From the NCBI RefSeq assembly GCF_009557455.1, contig NZ_CP045651.1, positions 1,922,001 to 1,986,000 on the forward strand: 64,000 bases of DNA, given 5' to 3'. Shown in pieces: positions 3,321-8,262 of the stretch. Each line of letters opens with the position of its first letter. The first letter of the stretch is position 1. The DNA is from Alistipes sp. dk3624 (GTDB lineage: Bacteria; Bacteroidota; Bacteroidia; Bacteroidales; Rikenellaceae). A program made the translations under genes and the position numbers. Under the pieces are notes generated by a model. That model was not told where the DNA came from and did not search any database. It saw nothing but the letters and a program-made list of their open reading frames with translations.

Positions 3321-4220
3321 TTAGGCCATGTCCCACTGTTCGCGGATCAGTTTCAGCGCAGCCGGAACGCTCTGCGCCCTGTCTCCTTTACAGCCGCATT
3401 CGAAGCTGACGTAATTCGGGTAATTCATCGCTTTCAGGGCGCGGAAGCCGTCCACGTAGTTGTCTACGTCGCCGTCTTCGCCGGGCGTGTTGCGGGTGCC
3501 GCGGCTGGCGATGTGTACGTGCTGCAGGTGCTCGCCGGCGGAGAAGAAGGCCCCGTAGTCGGAAGGTTCTTCGAAAGTCATGTGCCAGAAGTCGCCCATG
3601 CATTTCACGGCGGGATGTTTCGCATCGCGGCAGATCGAGGCGGCGTCGCCTACTTGGCGCAGGTAGAATGCCTCGTTGCGGTTCAACGGTTCGAGAATGA
3701 CGGTCGTGCCGCACTGTACCGCGTAATCGCCCAACTGGCGGAGTTGGTCTACCAAGTAGTTGCGGGTGTCCATCGTGTGCGGCATTGCGGGAACCTGTCC
3801 GTTGAAAGCCGGAACCATGATGACGCCCGTCGAGCCGAGTTCGCCGGCCGCAGCGATGATCTCGCGCATCGTTTGGTCGAACTGTTGCCGCACGGCTTCG
3901 TCTTCCGACAGAATGAAGCCCTGGAAACCGGCGCAAATCGCGCTGACCTTGATGTTGCGTCCTTGCAGCAGTTTTTGCAGTTCGCCGACCCGTGCGGCCA
4001 AGCCGGCTCCGCCGGGTTCGAAGCCGACCACGCCGTTCTGTTCCATGAAATCGAATTTCTGCTCCAGCGTTTCACCGGGAGCGGTTCCTTCCTGGAACGA
4101 GAGTTTCAGTTCCGTTTTTTTCTTTTTAGTGCTGTCGCATCCTGCGAGCATGTTCAGCGGACTGACCGCTGCGACGGCTCCGCCGACCAGCGTCGCCCGT
4201 AAAAAGTCTCTTCTTTTCAT
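3321..4220 (-). CDS. Exported sugar isomerase/epimerase-like TIM-barrel protein (AP endonuclease 2 family)
   Basis: 299 residues. The N-terminus has a twin-arginine motif (R-R-D-F-L at residues 3-7), a hydrophobic stretch and a lipobox-like L-A-G-C ending at Cys28, so the protein is probably exported folded and perhaps lipid-anchored. The remainder is a xylose-isomerase-like TIM barrel. Likely metal ligands are the glutamate in I-L-E-P-L-N, the aspartate/histidine in G-D-F-W-H, the histidines in V-H-I-A-S-R, and the glutamate in S-F-E-C-G. Exported members of this family occur in keto-sugar and inositol pathways with Gfo/Idh/MocA oxidoreductases. It overlaps the cupin gene upstream by 4 nt (ATGA), indicating translational coupling. 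The substrate is unknown. Confidence 0.85.
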   Translation of the reverse strand: MKRRDFLRATLVGGAVAAVSPLNMLAGCDSTKKKKTELKLSFQEGTAPGETLEQKFDFMEQNGVVGFEPGGAGLAARVGELQKLLQGRNIKVSAICAGFQGFILSEDEAVRQQFDQTMREIIAAAGELGSTGVIMVPAFNGQVPAMPHTMDTRNYLVDQLRQLGDYAVQCGTTVILEPLNRNEAFYLRQVGDAASICRDAKHPAVKCMGDFWHMTFEEPSDYGAFFSAGEHLQHVHIASRGTRNTPGEDGDVDNYVDGFRALKAMNYPNYVSFECGCKGDRAQSVPAALKLIREQWDMA

Positions 4221-4711
4221 ATTTTTGATTGTTTGTTTCGGTTCGATAATTCGTCCTGCAATCGTTTCAGGTAACGACCGATCCCTTCGGCGTCGCCGGT
4301 GTGCGGCGTCCAGGGCGCCAGGTCGGACTCCTGCAACGGAATATACGGGCCGGGCTTCACTTCGTAGACGACCGTACCGCTTTTGAGCACCAGCAGGCTA
4401 TGCCACTCGCCGGCCGGAATGTCGAATCCGTAAACGCCTTGCTGCGGGTCGATCACGGCACATTCGGCAATTTCGCCCCGGTCGTCGAAAATGAACGAGG
4501 CGACGCTGCCGCGCAATACCACGATCGCCTCGTCCTTGGCAGGATTCAGGTGGCGGTGCGCCGGCAGGTAGCTGCCCGGTTCGAGCGCATTCAACAGCCG
4601 GTTTACCGGATCGTCCGGCCGTTCGTGAAAGTTATAATTCTTTCGGAGACGGTCGTCCGTTCTGGCCTGGGCGGAGGTACGGTTCAACAGTTCGGCATCG
4701 ATGAGTTTCAT
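4217..4711 (-). CDS. WbuC-family cupin-fold protein
   Basis: 164 residues with the WbuC pattern: N-terminal M-K-L-I-D, then R-K-N-Y-N-F-H and the cupin motif P-A-H-R-H-L-N-P-A-K-D-E with metal-binding histidines and glutamate, then G-E-W-H-S-L and a K-P-G-P-Y-I-P segment. WbuC proteins are often encoded with sugar or polysaccharide genes; their reaction is not firmly established. No signal peptide is evident, so it is cytoplasmic. The stop codon overlaps the start of the exported isomerase gene. A hairpin terminator at 4742-4771 separates it from the oxidoreductase gene upstream, so it should have its own promoter, which I could not identify. Confidence 0.85.
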   Translation of the reverse strand: MKLIDAELLNRTSAQARTDDRLRKNYNFHERPDDPVNRLLNALEPGSYLPAHRHLNPAKDEAIVVLRGSVASFIFDDRGEIAECAVIDPQQGVYGFDIPAGEWHSLLVLKSGTVVYEVKPGPYIPLQESDLAPWTPHTGDAEGIGRYLKRLQDELSNRNKQSKI

Positions 4712-4802: not shown

Positions 4803-6164
4803 TTATTTGCCTGTGCCCGGGACGGGAACGGTATAGATGCTCATGTCCATCGGGCCAAGTTCCATCTTGGCAGGCGTGAGGTTCAGCGGCGATGCCGTCA
4901 TTTCGTCCCAAGAGACCGACTTGCCGGTGTAAGCCGATTCCCGGCCCATAATGGCGCACATATTCGATGTGGCGGTCTCTTCGGCCTGTACGATCGGGGT
5001 ATTGTTGCGGATGCAGGAGATCCAGTTGACATGCTCCAGCGTGTACGGGTCGTTTTGCTGGTGGGCGGCATCTTCGGTCGCGCTGTCGTACTGCCATACG
5101 ATGTTGCCCTGCAGGTCGCGGATGGCGAAGTCGGTGCTGCTCCACGATCCTTTGGTTCCCTGGATGAATTCGCTGACGTTGGAATCGCAGCCGTCGATCT
5201 GGCGGCACATGCTGTGCATATGAACGCCGTTGTCGTATTCGAAATCTACGCTGAAATTGTCGTACTGATCCCCCGTCACGCGGCGCTGGCGGCTTCCGAA
5301 AGCGGTGGCTCGTTTCGGCTTATAACCCGAGAACCAGTTGAATACGTCGATATTGTGAACGTGTTGTTCAACGATATGGTCTCCGGAAAGCCATTTCCAG
5401 TTCACCCAGTCGCGGATCATCCACTCCATGTCCGACCAACCTTTTTCACGGTTGCGGTACCACAGCATCGGCTGATTCCAGTAGACGTTGCCGCCGGTAA
5501 TTTCGCCGATCAGACCTTCCTGCACCTTTTTATACGATTCTACGTAGGGGCGTTGATGGTGACGCTGCGTTCCGGTGATAACACACAGCCCCTTGGCCTG
5601 GGCCTGCTTGGCCGCGGCCATTACGGTGCGGTAACCTTCCGGATCGACGCAGATCGGTTTTTCGAGGAAACTGTGTACCCCTTTTTCGGTGGCGTATTTG
5701 AAGTGTTCCGGACGGAAAAACGGGGGCGTGGCGATGATTACCACGTCTACGCCGGAATCGATCACGTTTTTATAGGCGTCGAAACCGGTGAAGCATTTGT
5801 CGTCGGCTACTTCGATCTGGTATTTGTCTTTCAGCGTGTTTTTCAATCCCTGCAGGCGGTCGTCGAATACGTCGCCAAGCGCCGTGATCGTGACTCCGTT
5901 GGCGGCCGCCAGAAAGTTCTCGGCCGCTCCCGAACCGCGTCCGCCGCAGCCGATCACGCCGGCTTTCAGTTCTTTTCCGTCGGCCGCTTTGTCGGGCAAT
6001 TCCGGAATGTAATATTCCCCGGGCGCTTTCAACGGTACGTAAGCCGTCTTTTTGCTGTTTCCGCACGAGGAAAGAAGCGGTGAAAAGCCCAGCGCTCCGG
6101 CTACGCCGGCCACTGCCGAATAGGAGAGGAACTCCCTTCTGGTAATTTTGTTATCCTTGCTCAT
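4803..6164 (-). CDS. Tat-exported Gfo/Idh/MocA family oxidoreductase
   Basis: 453 residues. The signal region has R-R-E-F-L at residues 9-13, a hydrophobic core and L-S-S-C with Cys34, so export by the Tat system with possible lipid anchoring is likely. The Rossmann nucleotide loop G-C-G-G-R-G is at 72-77, and the family motif E-K-P at 168-170 contains the catalytic lysine. Proteins of this family with Tat signals keep NAD(P) tightly bound and oxidise or isomerise sugars outside the cytoplasm. It follows the cytochrome-FGE fusion gene by 60 nt on the same strand, suggesting they share a transcript and that the cytochrome could exchange electrons with it. Substrate unknown; a glycoside C3-oxidation is plausible. 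Confidence 0.9.
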   Translation of the reverse strand: MSKDNKITRREFLSYSAVAGVAGALGFSPLLSSCGNSKKTAYVPLKAPGEYYIPELPDKAADGKELKAGVIGCGGRGSGAAENFLAAANGVTITALGDVFDDRLQGLKNTLKDKYQIEVADDKCFTGFDAYKNVIDSGVDVVIIATPPFFRPEHFKYATEKGVHSFLEKPICVDPEGYRTVMAAAKQAQAKGLCVITGTQRHHQRPYVESYKKVQEGLIGEITGGNVYWNQPMLWYRNREKGWSDMEWMIRDWVNWKWLSGDHIVEQHVHNIDVFNWFSGYKPKRATAFGSRQRRVTGDQYDNFSVDFEYDNGVHMHSMCRQIDGCDSNVSEFIQGTKGSWSSTDFAIRDLQGNIVWQYDSATEDAAHQQNDPYTLEHVNWISCIRNNTPIVQAEETATSNMCAIMGRESAYTGKSVSWDEMTASPLNLTPAKMELGPMDMSIYTVPVPGTGK

Positions 6165-6224: not shown

Positions 6225-7796
6225 TTACGGTTGCTGACCATCGGCGGGTTCGCATACGACCCGGAACCCGATGCTGCGGATATCCGAGTACCACCAGATA
6301 CTTTTCGGATTTTGCGGATCGGTTTTCAGCCATTTGTCGTGCTCGGTATGTCCGCGGGCGGCCGATCGCAGATCCGCCGCGTCGTCGGAGAACTGACCGC
6401 CGCGCACTACGTGTTCTTTCCCCGATGCGGGGCCTTTCGGATCGACTGCGCCGTCGGGCATTTTCGCGTAGGCGTCTTCGGCATACCAGTCCGAACAGTA
6501 TTCCATTACGTTGCCGAGCGTATTTTTAAGCCCGAACGGGTTGGCTTGTACGAACGACGGCTCCTGGGTTTTGTTCTTGCTGTTTTTGGTATAGACGACG
6601 TAACGGTTTATGTTGGTCGTGTCGGCGTCGAAGAATTTCCGCCAGAAGCCCTGATCGGAGAGTTTCTTCGGATCGCCGGCGAAGAAGTAGGGCGTTTCCG
6701 TTCCGCCGCGCGTCGCGTATTCCCATTCGGCTTCGGTCGGCAGACGGTATTTCTTGCCGGTTTTTTTCGACAACCACTGGCAGAACGTTTCGGCCGCGTA
6801 ATGGGTCATCGTGATGGCCGGCCGGTTGCCGCTGCCCCAACCCTGGTCGGGGATGCCGAACGGCGGGGTCGGGCCGCTGATCGCGTCTACTTCCGGGTTC
6901 GAATTGTTGGCGTAAACCTTTTCCGGCGGCGTGCGTCCTTCCGACATGGTCTCGGCGTAAAAAGCCCAGTACTGATCCCAGGTCACTTCGGTTTCGCCGA
7001 TAAAGAACGGCGAAACGGTCACTTTTTTTACGGGGCCTTCGTCGTCCCTGCGGAACGGTTCGTCGTCCGGGCTGCCCATTGCGAAAGTTCCTCCGGGGAT
7101 CGCTTTCATGTCAAACGATACGGTCGTACCGGGGATGGTTTCGGTAAAATTCTCGAATGCGGTTACGGTAGCCGCTTCGGTGAACGGTTCGCCTTTTTTC
7201 GCTTCGGGCTGCGGGATGCCCTGCATTTTCGCATGCGTATAGTTCGGATCGTAATGGCCTACGTCCAGATGGCAGCTGATACACTGCAGGTCGAGTTTCT
7301 TTTCGTTTTCTTCGTAGTAGAGATGGGCGGTGATACCTTCCTGACTGAGCCGCGACGGGAACAACTGCTGATGGCACTCCTTGCATGATTCGTTGTAGAC
7401 GATCGTGACGGCGTGGTCCAGTTCTTTTTTACTTTCCCAGTCGAATTCGGAACTGTCTTTCGTCCAGTAGGCCCACAAATCTTTCAAACCGGTCCGCGCT
7501 TTGGCCGTGAAATGCTTGAAAGAGCCTTTCGGGGGCAGGTGGCATTCGGCGCAACCGGTCACTACGCCGCTTTTGCTGTTGTGGTGCGACGACAGTTTCC
7601 AGCTTTTATCCGCCTGAGGGTGCACATGGCACGACTGGCACGACTCGTCCGTCGAACTCTGCATGTAAACTCTGTTCAATCCGATCGTGATGCTCGCTCC
7701 GACGGCAACCGCCGCTATGACAGTTAAAATGAGTCCTTTACGGCTAAGCCCTATAATTTTTTTCTGATGCTCTTTTTTTTCGGATTTCCCGGACAT
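6225..7796 (-). CDS. Fusion of a tetraheme NapC/NirT-type cytochrome c and a formylglycine-generating-enzyme-like (SUMF1) domain
   Basis: 523 residues. After a charged start there is one transmembrane anchor at about 20-42. Four CxxCH heme sites follow: residues 53-57, 82-86, 138-142 and 172-176, as in small NapC/NirT/NrfH quinol dehydrogenases. From about residue 226 to 518 there is a complete FGE-sulfatase/SUMF1-like domain (I-P-G-G-T-F-x-M-G-S opening, E-V-T-W-D-Q-Y, P-T-E-A-E-W-E-Y-A-T-R-G-G, G-N-V-M-E-Y, V-V-R-G-G, and R-S-I-G-F-R at the end). The membrane part should take electrons from menaquinol; the partner domain faces the periplasm. First gene before the Gfo/Idh/MocA oxidoreductase. 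What the FGE-like domain does (modification, oxidation, or only sugar/protein binding) is not shown by sequence. Confidence 0.9.
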   Translation of the reverse strand: MSGKSEKKEHQKKIIGLSRKGLILTVIAAVAVGASITIGLNRVYMQSSTDESCQSCHVHPQADKSWKLSSHHNSKSGVVTGCAECHLPPKGSFKHFTAKARTGLKDLWAYWTKDSSEFDWESKKELDHAVTIVYNESCKECHQQLFPSRLSQEGITAHLYYEENEKKLDLQCISCHLDVGHYDPNYTHAKMQGIPQPEAKKGEPFTEAATVTAFENFTETIPGTTVSFDMKAIPGGTFAMGSPDDEPFRRDDEGPVKKVTVSPFFIGETEVTWDQYWAFYAETMSEGRTPPEKVYANNSNPEVDAISGPTPPFGIPDQGWGSGNRPAITMTHYAAETFCQWLSKKTGKKYRLPTEAEWEYATRGGTETPYFFAGDPKKLSDQGFWRKFFDADTTNINRYVVYTKNSKNKTQEPSFVQANPFGLKNTLGNVMEYCSDWYAEDAYAKMPDGAVDPKGPASGKEHVVRGGQFSDDAADLRSAARGHTEHDKWLKTDPQNPKSIWWYSDIRSIGFRVVCEPADGQQP

Positions 7797-7846
7797 ACAA
7801 ACTGATAGTTAAAATTTTCAATTAGCCACACTCCGCAGCTTAAATA

Positions 7847-7977: not shown

Positions 7978-8208
7978 TATTCGGCTGAAATTCCGGTTCG
8001 AAATCTACCACCCGGCTCGTTTTTCGCCCCTATAGCGACTCCGTGATGGGCGGACAGCCGGAACTTCTCTTATGATGTTTAGGGGGTAAAATGAAGATCG
8101 ATAATTCGAAGCGGTCGGCAGCGACGGGATCGTCCCGGTTGCTAAACATGATCGGCCGGGGGCGATCACTGTGTCGGCAGCGTGTATACGAAACTTTTTC
8201 GGGTAATA

Positions 8209-8239
8209 AAAAACGCCTTCATCGCATGAAGGCGTTTTT
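8209..8239 (-). terminator. Terminator of the ATP synthase operon
   Basis: 14-bp perfect stem (AAAAACGCCTTCAT and complement) with a CGC loop and a T run on the minus strand, 24 nt after the atpG stop. Confidence 0.9.
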
Positions 8240-8262
8240 GTCAGGTGTGCGATGTCGAAAAA

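Follow-up and report, generated by a model that had tools for sequence, protein, structure and literature searches.

What would a membrane-anchored multiheme cytochrome do with a domain of the formylglycine-generating enzyme (FGE) superfamily on the same polypeptide? The question is raised by a gene at positions 6225–7796, minus strand, of a 64,000 nt stretch of Alistipes sp. dk3624 (contig NZ_CP045651.1, positions 1,922,001 to 1,986,000), referred to here as the window. The encoded protein joins a tetraheme domain of the NapC/NrfH type to a SUMF1-type domain, and shares its operon with genes for a Gfo/Idh/MocA oxidoreductase (Gfo), a cupin and a triosephosphate isomerase (TIM) barrel protein. 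An annotation made earlier from the sequence alone (the original prediction) had interpreted the fusion as a NapC/NirT-type cytochrome supplying quinol electrons to an FGE-like enzyme. The reading we prefer, and to which we give about an even chance of being right, is that the fusion serves as the membrane-bound electron conduit in a periplasmic sugar-redox module of three parts, a menaquinone-linked keto-sugar oxidoreductase/epimerase. At the level of sequence, this draws on an anchored NrfH-type domain with equivalents of the NrfH residues K82 and D89, an intact Gfo protein, an intact set of TIM metal ligands, and the all-or-none co-occurrence of the three genes.

The span is a single open frame of 523 aa on the minus strand, beginning with an ATG at 7796, and its plus-strand translation contains internal stops; the strand had not been given previously. 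Within this frame (all feature coordinates below are minus strand) lie an N-terminal anchor helix (residues 19–46; 7659–7742), a NapC/NirT tetraheme domain (residues 20–185; 7242–7739; PF03264, 83.1 bits, cut-off 24.1) and a SUMF1-type domain (about residues 219–515; 6252–7142), in which the FGE-sulfatase family (PF03781) matches residues 230–486 with 141.4 bits (cut-off 23.3), so that the claim of a same-frame fusion is borne out. The helix was assigned from the secondary structure of a whole-protein AlphaFold2 model (mean predicted local distance difference test score, pLDDT, of 75), which was used only for the helix and the domain layout.

When 150 genomes of the family were searched with the fusion (E 1e-10), 61 matched, 32 of them with only partial SUMF1-type matches that were not counted. 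Near full-length fusions are present in 28 genomes besides the window's own, with 61–82% identity and no internal stops; in one of the genomes (G051) the match falls in two pieces, yet inside one open frame. In a scan of public genome contigs, which retained only the best 80 of 332 related stretches, all 80 are fusions (63–82% identity), and their record titles name Alistipes, Candidatus Cryptobacteroides, Parabacteroides, Massilibacteroides, Bacteroides, Bacteroidaceae, Prevotella and other Bacteroidales. A distant locus, L208, from a genome outside the class (G837), encodes a protein of 512 aa with the same domain arrangement, the SUMF1 part of which is 58% identical to that of the window, and it is followed by a Gfo gene whose product is 55% identical to the window's Gfo. 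A frameshift or assembly error joining two genes, one of the refuting cases named in the original prediction, is rejected by the 28 further family genomes with one frame, the best 80 public loci and the recurrence in L208. The fusion is real and conserved. No free-standing close relative of its heme domain was found, as none of 395 genomes of the class gave a non-fused match at E 1e-12.

For residue comparisons, the window protein was aligned with 107 homologues. These 108 rows comprise matches covering more than 300 residues of the query, with near-duplicates kept (at 85% identity the set shrinks to 52 rows). L001 and L002, which are the window itself, L030, whose frame holds a split match, and L031, at 30% identity, were omitted. 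Each of the 108 proteins carries exactly four CxxCH motifs. In the window, pattern matching and the alignment place that of heme 1 at C53–H57 (7626–7640) and those of heme 2 at C82–H86 (7539–7553), heme 3 at C138–H142 (7371–7385) and heme 4 at C172–H176 (7269–7283), in agreement with the one anchor helix and four sites within residues 53–176 described before. The first motif is extended to CxxCHxH by H59, which is invariant in 108/108 rows. With PF03264 above its cut-off, four CxxCH motifs and an anchor helix, the heme domain is by sequence a member of the NapC family, but not a canonical NrfH.

Proteins of the NrfH type normally draw electrons from menaquinol. The best solved-structure match of the heme domain alone is NrfH (PDB 2j7a), a weak match (E 0.017), and in that alignment K99 and D106 of the fusion (7479–7502), both invariant in 51 rows, fall on NrfH K82 and D89, while H59 falls on NrfH M49. 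Lys82 and Asp89 are given as conserved residues of NrfH in passages of PMC4683180, and PMC10654088 describes Met49 as a heme-I ligand and both Met49 and Asp89 as essential for menaquinol oxidation. The fusion shares with the NrfH and NapC/NirT quinol dehydrogenases (PF03264, TIGR03153, PDB 2j7a) its N-terminal anchor helix, four CxxCH motifs and this residue pair, and its heme domain is plausibly quinone-reactive. It differs from NrfH in having CxxCHxH rather than CxxCHxM at heme 1 (the latter is present in 3/3 NrfH controls), in the fused SUMF1-type domain, in a partner that is not NrfA, and in its score: TIGR03153 is the best-scoring named heme family, but its 72.4 bits lie below the curated cut-off of 134.2. 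The substitution of His for Met suggests that heme 1 may have a lower potential. A search of the window genome for NrfA (TIGR03152, E 0.001) gave no match; among its controls only the E. coli protein was detected, and they included no NrfA from Bacteroidota. A canonical NrfH or NrfHA system in disguise is rejected on the CxxCHxH motif, the sub-threshold NrfH score and this missing NrfA match.

The SUMF1-type domain, which had been called complete, is so as a fold, but judged by its residues it is not an FGE. PF03781 is above its cut-off, and FGE chains are found at Z 25–26 with a model of the domain (mean pLDDT 86.8) built from an alignment of 44 diverse rows. The FGE catalytic cysteine pair, which we take to lie just after the GG(S)F motif, would fall in columns 471–477, and none of the 108 rows has a Cys there, the FGE-type alignment used to place the pair stopping one residue short of it. 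Nearby cysteines occur only at columns 478 (39 rows), 468 (1 row) and 483 (2 rows), and are not the FGE pair. The sulfoxide synthases EgtB and OvoA carry an N-terminal DinB domain with iron-binding histidines; the DinB family is absent from the Pfam matches of the fusion, in which residues 20–185 are NapC/NirT instead. FGE and sulfoxide synthase activities are rejected on these two grounds, the Cys-free columns and the lack of a DinB match. Nor does the fusion reach the cut-offs for the type IX secretion lipoproteins GldK (94.4 against 350) and GldJ (34.4 against 458.2). The earlier idea of an electron-fed FGE-type enzyme, whether formylglycine-generating, another mono-oxygenase or copper-dependent, consequently loses its footing: family membership and the FGE folds speak for it, but the Cys-free columns, the origin of the fusion loci (mostly gut or rumen samples by record title, hence mostly oxygen-poor) and the fact that no sulfatase was recognised by Pfam or NCBIfam among the window operon genes make it extremely improbable.

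The nearest fold to the domain model is PvdO (PDB 5hha; Z 30.7, root-mean-square deviation 2.3, 243 residues aligned), a protein of the FGE/SUMF1 superfamily, and the best NCBIfam match is likewise a PvdO model (NF051459, dihydropyoverdine dehydrogenase), at 98 bits. The most striking conserved stretch beyond the general SUMF1 motifs is a C-terminal loop, D-P-Q-x-P-x-S-x-W-W, in which D286, P287, Q288, P290, S292, W294 and W295 (domain numbering; 286 is residue 493 of the protein) are invariant in 44/44 rows. It is modelled with lower confidence than the rest in both the whole-protein and the domain model, as would be expected of a functional rather than a structural loop. These features would suit a domain that is itself a catalytic oxidoreductase, as the PvdO annotation implies, with quinol electrons passing through the hemes to reduce the product of the Gfo and TIM proteins in an anaerobic respiratory reductase, and NapC/NrfH proteins do usually oxidise quinol. 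We nevertheless consider this rather unlikely. The fusion shares a fold with PvdO but scores far under the equivalog cut-off of 500, sits in a different operon and has hemes fused on; neither a cofactor site nor a metal triad nor a pair of catalytic cysteines was recognised in it; and its unfused relatives, described below, have no electron source attached.

Another possibility is that the domain only binds, like the C-type-lectin-like ligand-binding proteins of this fold, and tethers a glycan or protein near the hemes or Gfo. The second nearest fold, Treponema denticola variable protein 1 (Z 29.5, ahead of the FGEs at about 25–26), is also the top solved-structure match of the domain profile, and the lack of FGE cysteines is in keeping with a binding function. 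Against this, identities of 63–69% beyond the window's nearest relatives, together with the invariant loop, exceed what a variable binder would need, and binding alone would leave the fused hemes unexplained; we regard it as unlikely.

In the window, the operon runs on the minus strand in the order fusion, Gfo/Idh/MocA oxidoreductase (4803–6164), WbuC-type cupin (4217–4711) and TIM barrel (3321–4220). The Gfo gene is next to the fusion, 60 bp on, and its product (PF01408 above cut-off) has a twin-arginine translocation (Tat)-type signal that scores 20.9 bits with TIGR01409 (cut-off 16.7) and 20.3 with Pfam TAT_signal, below the cut-off of 22.7. The operon shared with a Gfo/Idh/MocA protein, which the original prediction called Tat-exported and which bears a Tat-type signal, is confirmed. 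Its GxGxxG motif (residues 72–77), K169 (of EKP), H270 and D273 are intact, and were kept in 111 Gfo proteins (70 fusion-type and 41 unfused-type). The cupin (TIGR04366, 146.3 bits) is an accessory found in a minority of operons.

The TIM protein (PF01261), which the original prediction had missed, resembles sugar isomerases and epimerases, with 435.6 bits to PDB 3kws. Its Tat-like signal falls just under both cut-offs (TIGR01409, 16.2 against 16.7). The ligand set E-D-H-E is typical of this TIM-barrel fold family, and the corresponding E177, D210, H236 and E274 are kept in 63 or 64 of 64 operon TIM proteins (one row is gapped at three columns), while 24 TIM proteins of unfused loci have Gln in place of H236. 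The TIM gene of a Parabacteroides distasonis operon (L111) encodes a protein 98.9% identical to 3kws over 272 residues, so that this 'putative sugar isomerase', which bears only a general molecule name, is in effect the TIM protein of that operon. The next solved relative, 6wn6 (93.1 bits), is named 3-keto-D-glucoside 4-epimerase, and is presumably YcjR of E. coli, the partner of YcjS. A Gfo-type dehydrogenase paired with a TIM-barrel relative of 6wn6 is the arrangement of Gfo/TIM 3-keto-sugar pathways, and we know of no counterpart to the SUMF1 and tetraheme parts either in these or in the LacABC/DUF1080 pathways. In the latter, according to parts of PMC9007349, LacABC with DUF1080 carries out periplasmic 3-oxidation and 3-keto hydrolysis; they differ in using a dehydrogenase of their own where the present operon has a Tat-type Gfo/Idh/MocA protein. 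Gfo and TIM are the consistent catalytic pair of the fusion loci, and such a pair is typical of 3-keto sugar chemistry, as seen with 6wn6, DUF1080 and, for its periplasmic setting, LacABC.

Gfo lies directly next to the fusion in 66 of the 74 fusion loci that could be ordered (six of the 80 could not). Of all 80, with a contig end scored as a miss, 69 have a Gfo gene of this cluster, 63 have TIM and 15 the cupin, while ResB-like and CcsA-like genes, both of the cytochrome-maturation type, are present in 37 and 22; the ResB-like, CcsA-like and other Pfam names of neighbours were checked on one member per cluster. There is no ResB-CcsA beside the window operon; the window genome encodes two long Cytochrom_C_asm proteins, both away from it.

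Orthologues of the fusion, of Gfo (at least 62% identity) and of TIM (at least 58%) occur in an identical set of 29 of the 150 family genomes, the sets having been compared by eye, and none of the three is found in the other 121, where a Gfo relative in one (G075), at 47% only, was not counted as an orthologue. The co-occurrence of fusion and oxidoreductase that the earlier annotation had proposed to check is thereby upheld. In G074 the TIM gene is split across two contigs, and because 51 of the 150 genomes are outside the range of at least 90% completeness and at most 5% contamination, single absences may be false. The genes are not always linked: in G013 those for fusion, Gfo and TIM are scattered on one contig (at 2256668, 1125965 and 2139145), while G009 and G029 have the Gfo–TIM pair on one contig and the fusion on another, amid different surrounding genes. 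Since all three are kept where linkage has been lost, the all-or-none pattern is not a matter of operon hitch-hiking alone. Shared ancestry within the family contributes to it, but functional coupling of fusion, Gfo and TIM is well supported. A periplasmic redox module, as suggested in the original prediction, is likely.

The same results bear on whether the heme domain might serve a nitrite or similar reductase encoded elsewhere, with the sugar genes as accidental neighbours. Among named heme families NrfH scores highest, and ResB-CcsA-like genes follow the fusion in part of the loci, as in the nrfHA-resB-ccsA gene order of nitrite reductase operons. Such an Nrf-type pathway is still very improbable, given the retention with Gfo and TIM even where they are unlinked, the replacement of the heme-1 Met by His, and a window genome with no NrfA match by a search whose positive control was from E. 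coli rather than Bacteroidota.

Elsewhere in Bacteroidota, strong matches to the SUMF1-type domain in 395 genomes of the class and 395 of the phylum (overlapping sets) are mostly separate proteins, a form that had also escaped notice before. In the loci sampled they are mostly 298–435 aa long, and many have signal peptides evident by eye. Loci were sampled from 13 of the 18 strong class matches and 36 from the strong part of the phylum list (E 1e-73 or better), the weaker matches at E 1e-30 to 1e-38 and 1e-50 to 1e-62 being excluded. One of these 49 (L210) was not anchored, leaving 48 anchored loci, of which 47 are heme-free and the other is L208. Neighbours were named by BLAST against a single reference protein apiece. 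On this basis, 43 of the loci have a Gfo gene no more than five genes away, which in 39 is the adjacent gene on the same strand; 24 have a TIM gene nearby, 19 ApbE, 4 YceI, 3 a DUF1080 3-keto-disaccharide hydrolase and 2 a CxxCH-bearing Tll0287-like protein. Other Bacteroidota would have a related SUMF1–Gfo module, often with a TIM protein of another type, without fused hemes and often beside ApbE. The heme domain thus has the look of a connection to the quinone pool that is specific to one lineage. In a tree of 69 SUMF1 rows, all 28 fusions are on one side of a branch with support of 100/100, as would fit a fusion that arose once. The SUMF1 tree was built by a careful method; the Gfo tree, by a quick one, gives the fusion group a support of 80, with a long unfused branch (L221) beside it. 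Pairwise distances of SUMF1 and Gfo are correlated (r 0.84 over 69 loci; 0.88 for fusions, 0.67 for unfused loci), the maximum in 999 permutations being 0.14.

ApbE, a flavin transferase, is a recurrent neighbour of the SUMF1–Gfo pair (19/48 loci, for example at 7819–8820 of L142). A strict form of the ApbE target motif was absent from all 69 Gfo proteins of the fusion loci and gave one chance-like match among the unfused-type Gfo proteins. A looser [ST]GAT string occurs in 25 Gfo proteins; it usually falls at one C-terminal site, which is kept neither in other Gfo proteins nor in that of the window. Flavinylation of a cluster protein by ApbE was rejected, no target motif being present apart from the one chance-like match.

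How these parts might work together can be outlined. There is no free NAD(H) pool outside the cytoplasm, so an exported Gfo protein must hold its cofactor and must, in addition, be redox-neutral or exchange electrons with another component. In the proposed scheme, a Gfo enzyme with tightly held NAD(H) would oxidise a hydroxyl of a sugar or glycoside to a keto sugar, which the TIM barrel would epimerise or otherwise rearrange. The SUMF1 domain would dock on the Gfo enzyme, and the tetraheme domain would move surplus electrons between the Gfo complex and menaquinone. The sugar enzyme would most likely be the donor and the quinone the acceptor, a direction favoured because the step from NADH to menaquinone is downhill. 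The direction of electron flow, the substrate and the role of the SUMF1 domain are the parts of this scheme that we infer. The TIM protein as third component, together with the unfused form in other Bacteroidota, suggests that the main catalyst is the Gfo protein rather than the SUMF1 domain, and a tetraheme domain of quinone-reactive type fused beside a conserved Gfo partner would be the simplest electron exchanger. As the fusion is found in the 150 family genomes only where both sugar-converting enzymes are present, it probably connects the respiratory quinones with sugar chemistry taking place beyond the inner membrane.

Several points weigh against the electron-conduit scheme. Hemes carry single electrons and NAD(H) transfers a hydride, and with no flavin or other converter visible, hydride-to-heme transfer is a weak step, although the ApbE genes near 19 of the 48 loci hint at flavins there. 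The proposed direction is the reverse of that usual for NrfH-type proteins, which run from menaquinol to protein. The three NrfH controls have, by eye, Lys at the place of K99 but His at that of D106, so D106 does not strictly indicate reactivity with quinol. In 47 of the 48 wider-phylum loci the SUMF1 protein carries no heme, so the core reaction does not require hemes, and the unfused module may perform another reaction, as its Gfo and TIM proteins are only 36–40% and 21–23% identical to those of the window (first 13 unfused loci); TIM is, moreover, near in only half of these loci (24/48). Lastly, common inheritance of linked genes is partly behind the correlation of SUMF1 and Gfo distances.

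A bolder version of the electron-conduit scheme may be put forward tentatively, as one that we think has the smaller chance of being correct. The proteins would form a respiratory complex of a new kind, in which an exported Gfo with captive NAD(H) is linked to the menaquinone pool by a SUMF1 adaptor fused to a tetraheme quinone reductase of the bis-His type, and gut Bacteroidales would feed electrons from keto-sugar chemistry in the periplasm directly into anaerobic respiration. The SUMF1–Gfo pair would then be phylum-wide and its electron outlets variable, being fused hemes, a Tll0287-like heme protein or ApbE-dependent flavins.

A number of further observations concern the loci and their surroundings. 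One genome (G467; loci L157 and L158) carries the fusion in two complete copies, each followed by its own Gfo gene, and the distant fusion of L208 (5200–10376) has a TIM gene of the unfused-locus type upstream and two Gfo genes downstream. The window genome encodes a further Gfo protein (G000, contig C1, 2951047–2952387), 51% identical to that of the operon, and beside one of its long Cytochrom_C_asm proteins are a two-CxxCH and a one-CxxCH protein (L174, 3019–9971). Two genes follow TIM, each in 18 of the 80 fusion loci (at about 11.9–13.2 kb in L085, L088 and L111, and in other Parabacteroides); one has no Pfam match (one member checked) and the other has, by eye, a LuxR-like C-terminus, and they are possible regulators of the operon. 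In about six of the 80 loci (L042, L043 and similar ones of the Cryptobacteroides type), genes resembling cytochrome bd oxidase subunits by eye lie 2–3 genes upstream of the fusion. In the window, a terminator-like hairpin with a T run (8205–8240, by eye) separates the fusion operon from an ATP synthase gamma-like gene.

What was first proposed for this locus thus stands as regards the module architecture, but not as regards the SUMF1-type domain as an electron-fed enzyme. Among the matches listed in a search of the open-access literature (titles and the starts of abstracts, with subscription papers outside its scope), no description was found of a SUMF1–tetraheme/NapC fusion or of this operon, and a term search of the main texts of ApbE surveys did not find the words SUMF1 or formylglycine. 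The domain families are known, their conserved combination is unreported as far as the open-access search goes, and a new role is plausible. The operon gives the structural-genomics protein 3kws a context, and the fusion provides a large branch of the SUMF1 superfamily, orphan until now, with a partner. In gut Bacteroidota, where Gfo/Idh/MocA proteins of the Tat type are recurrent, the fusion is a concrete, testable candidate for the electron link of such NAD(H) enzymes outside the cytoplasm.

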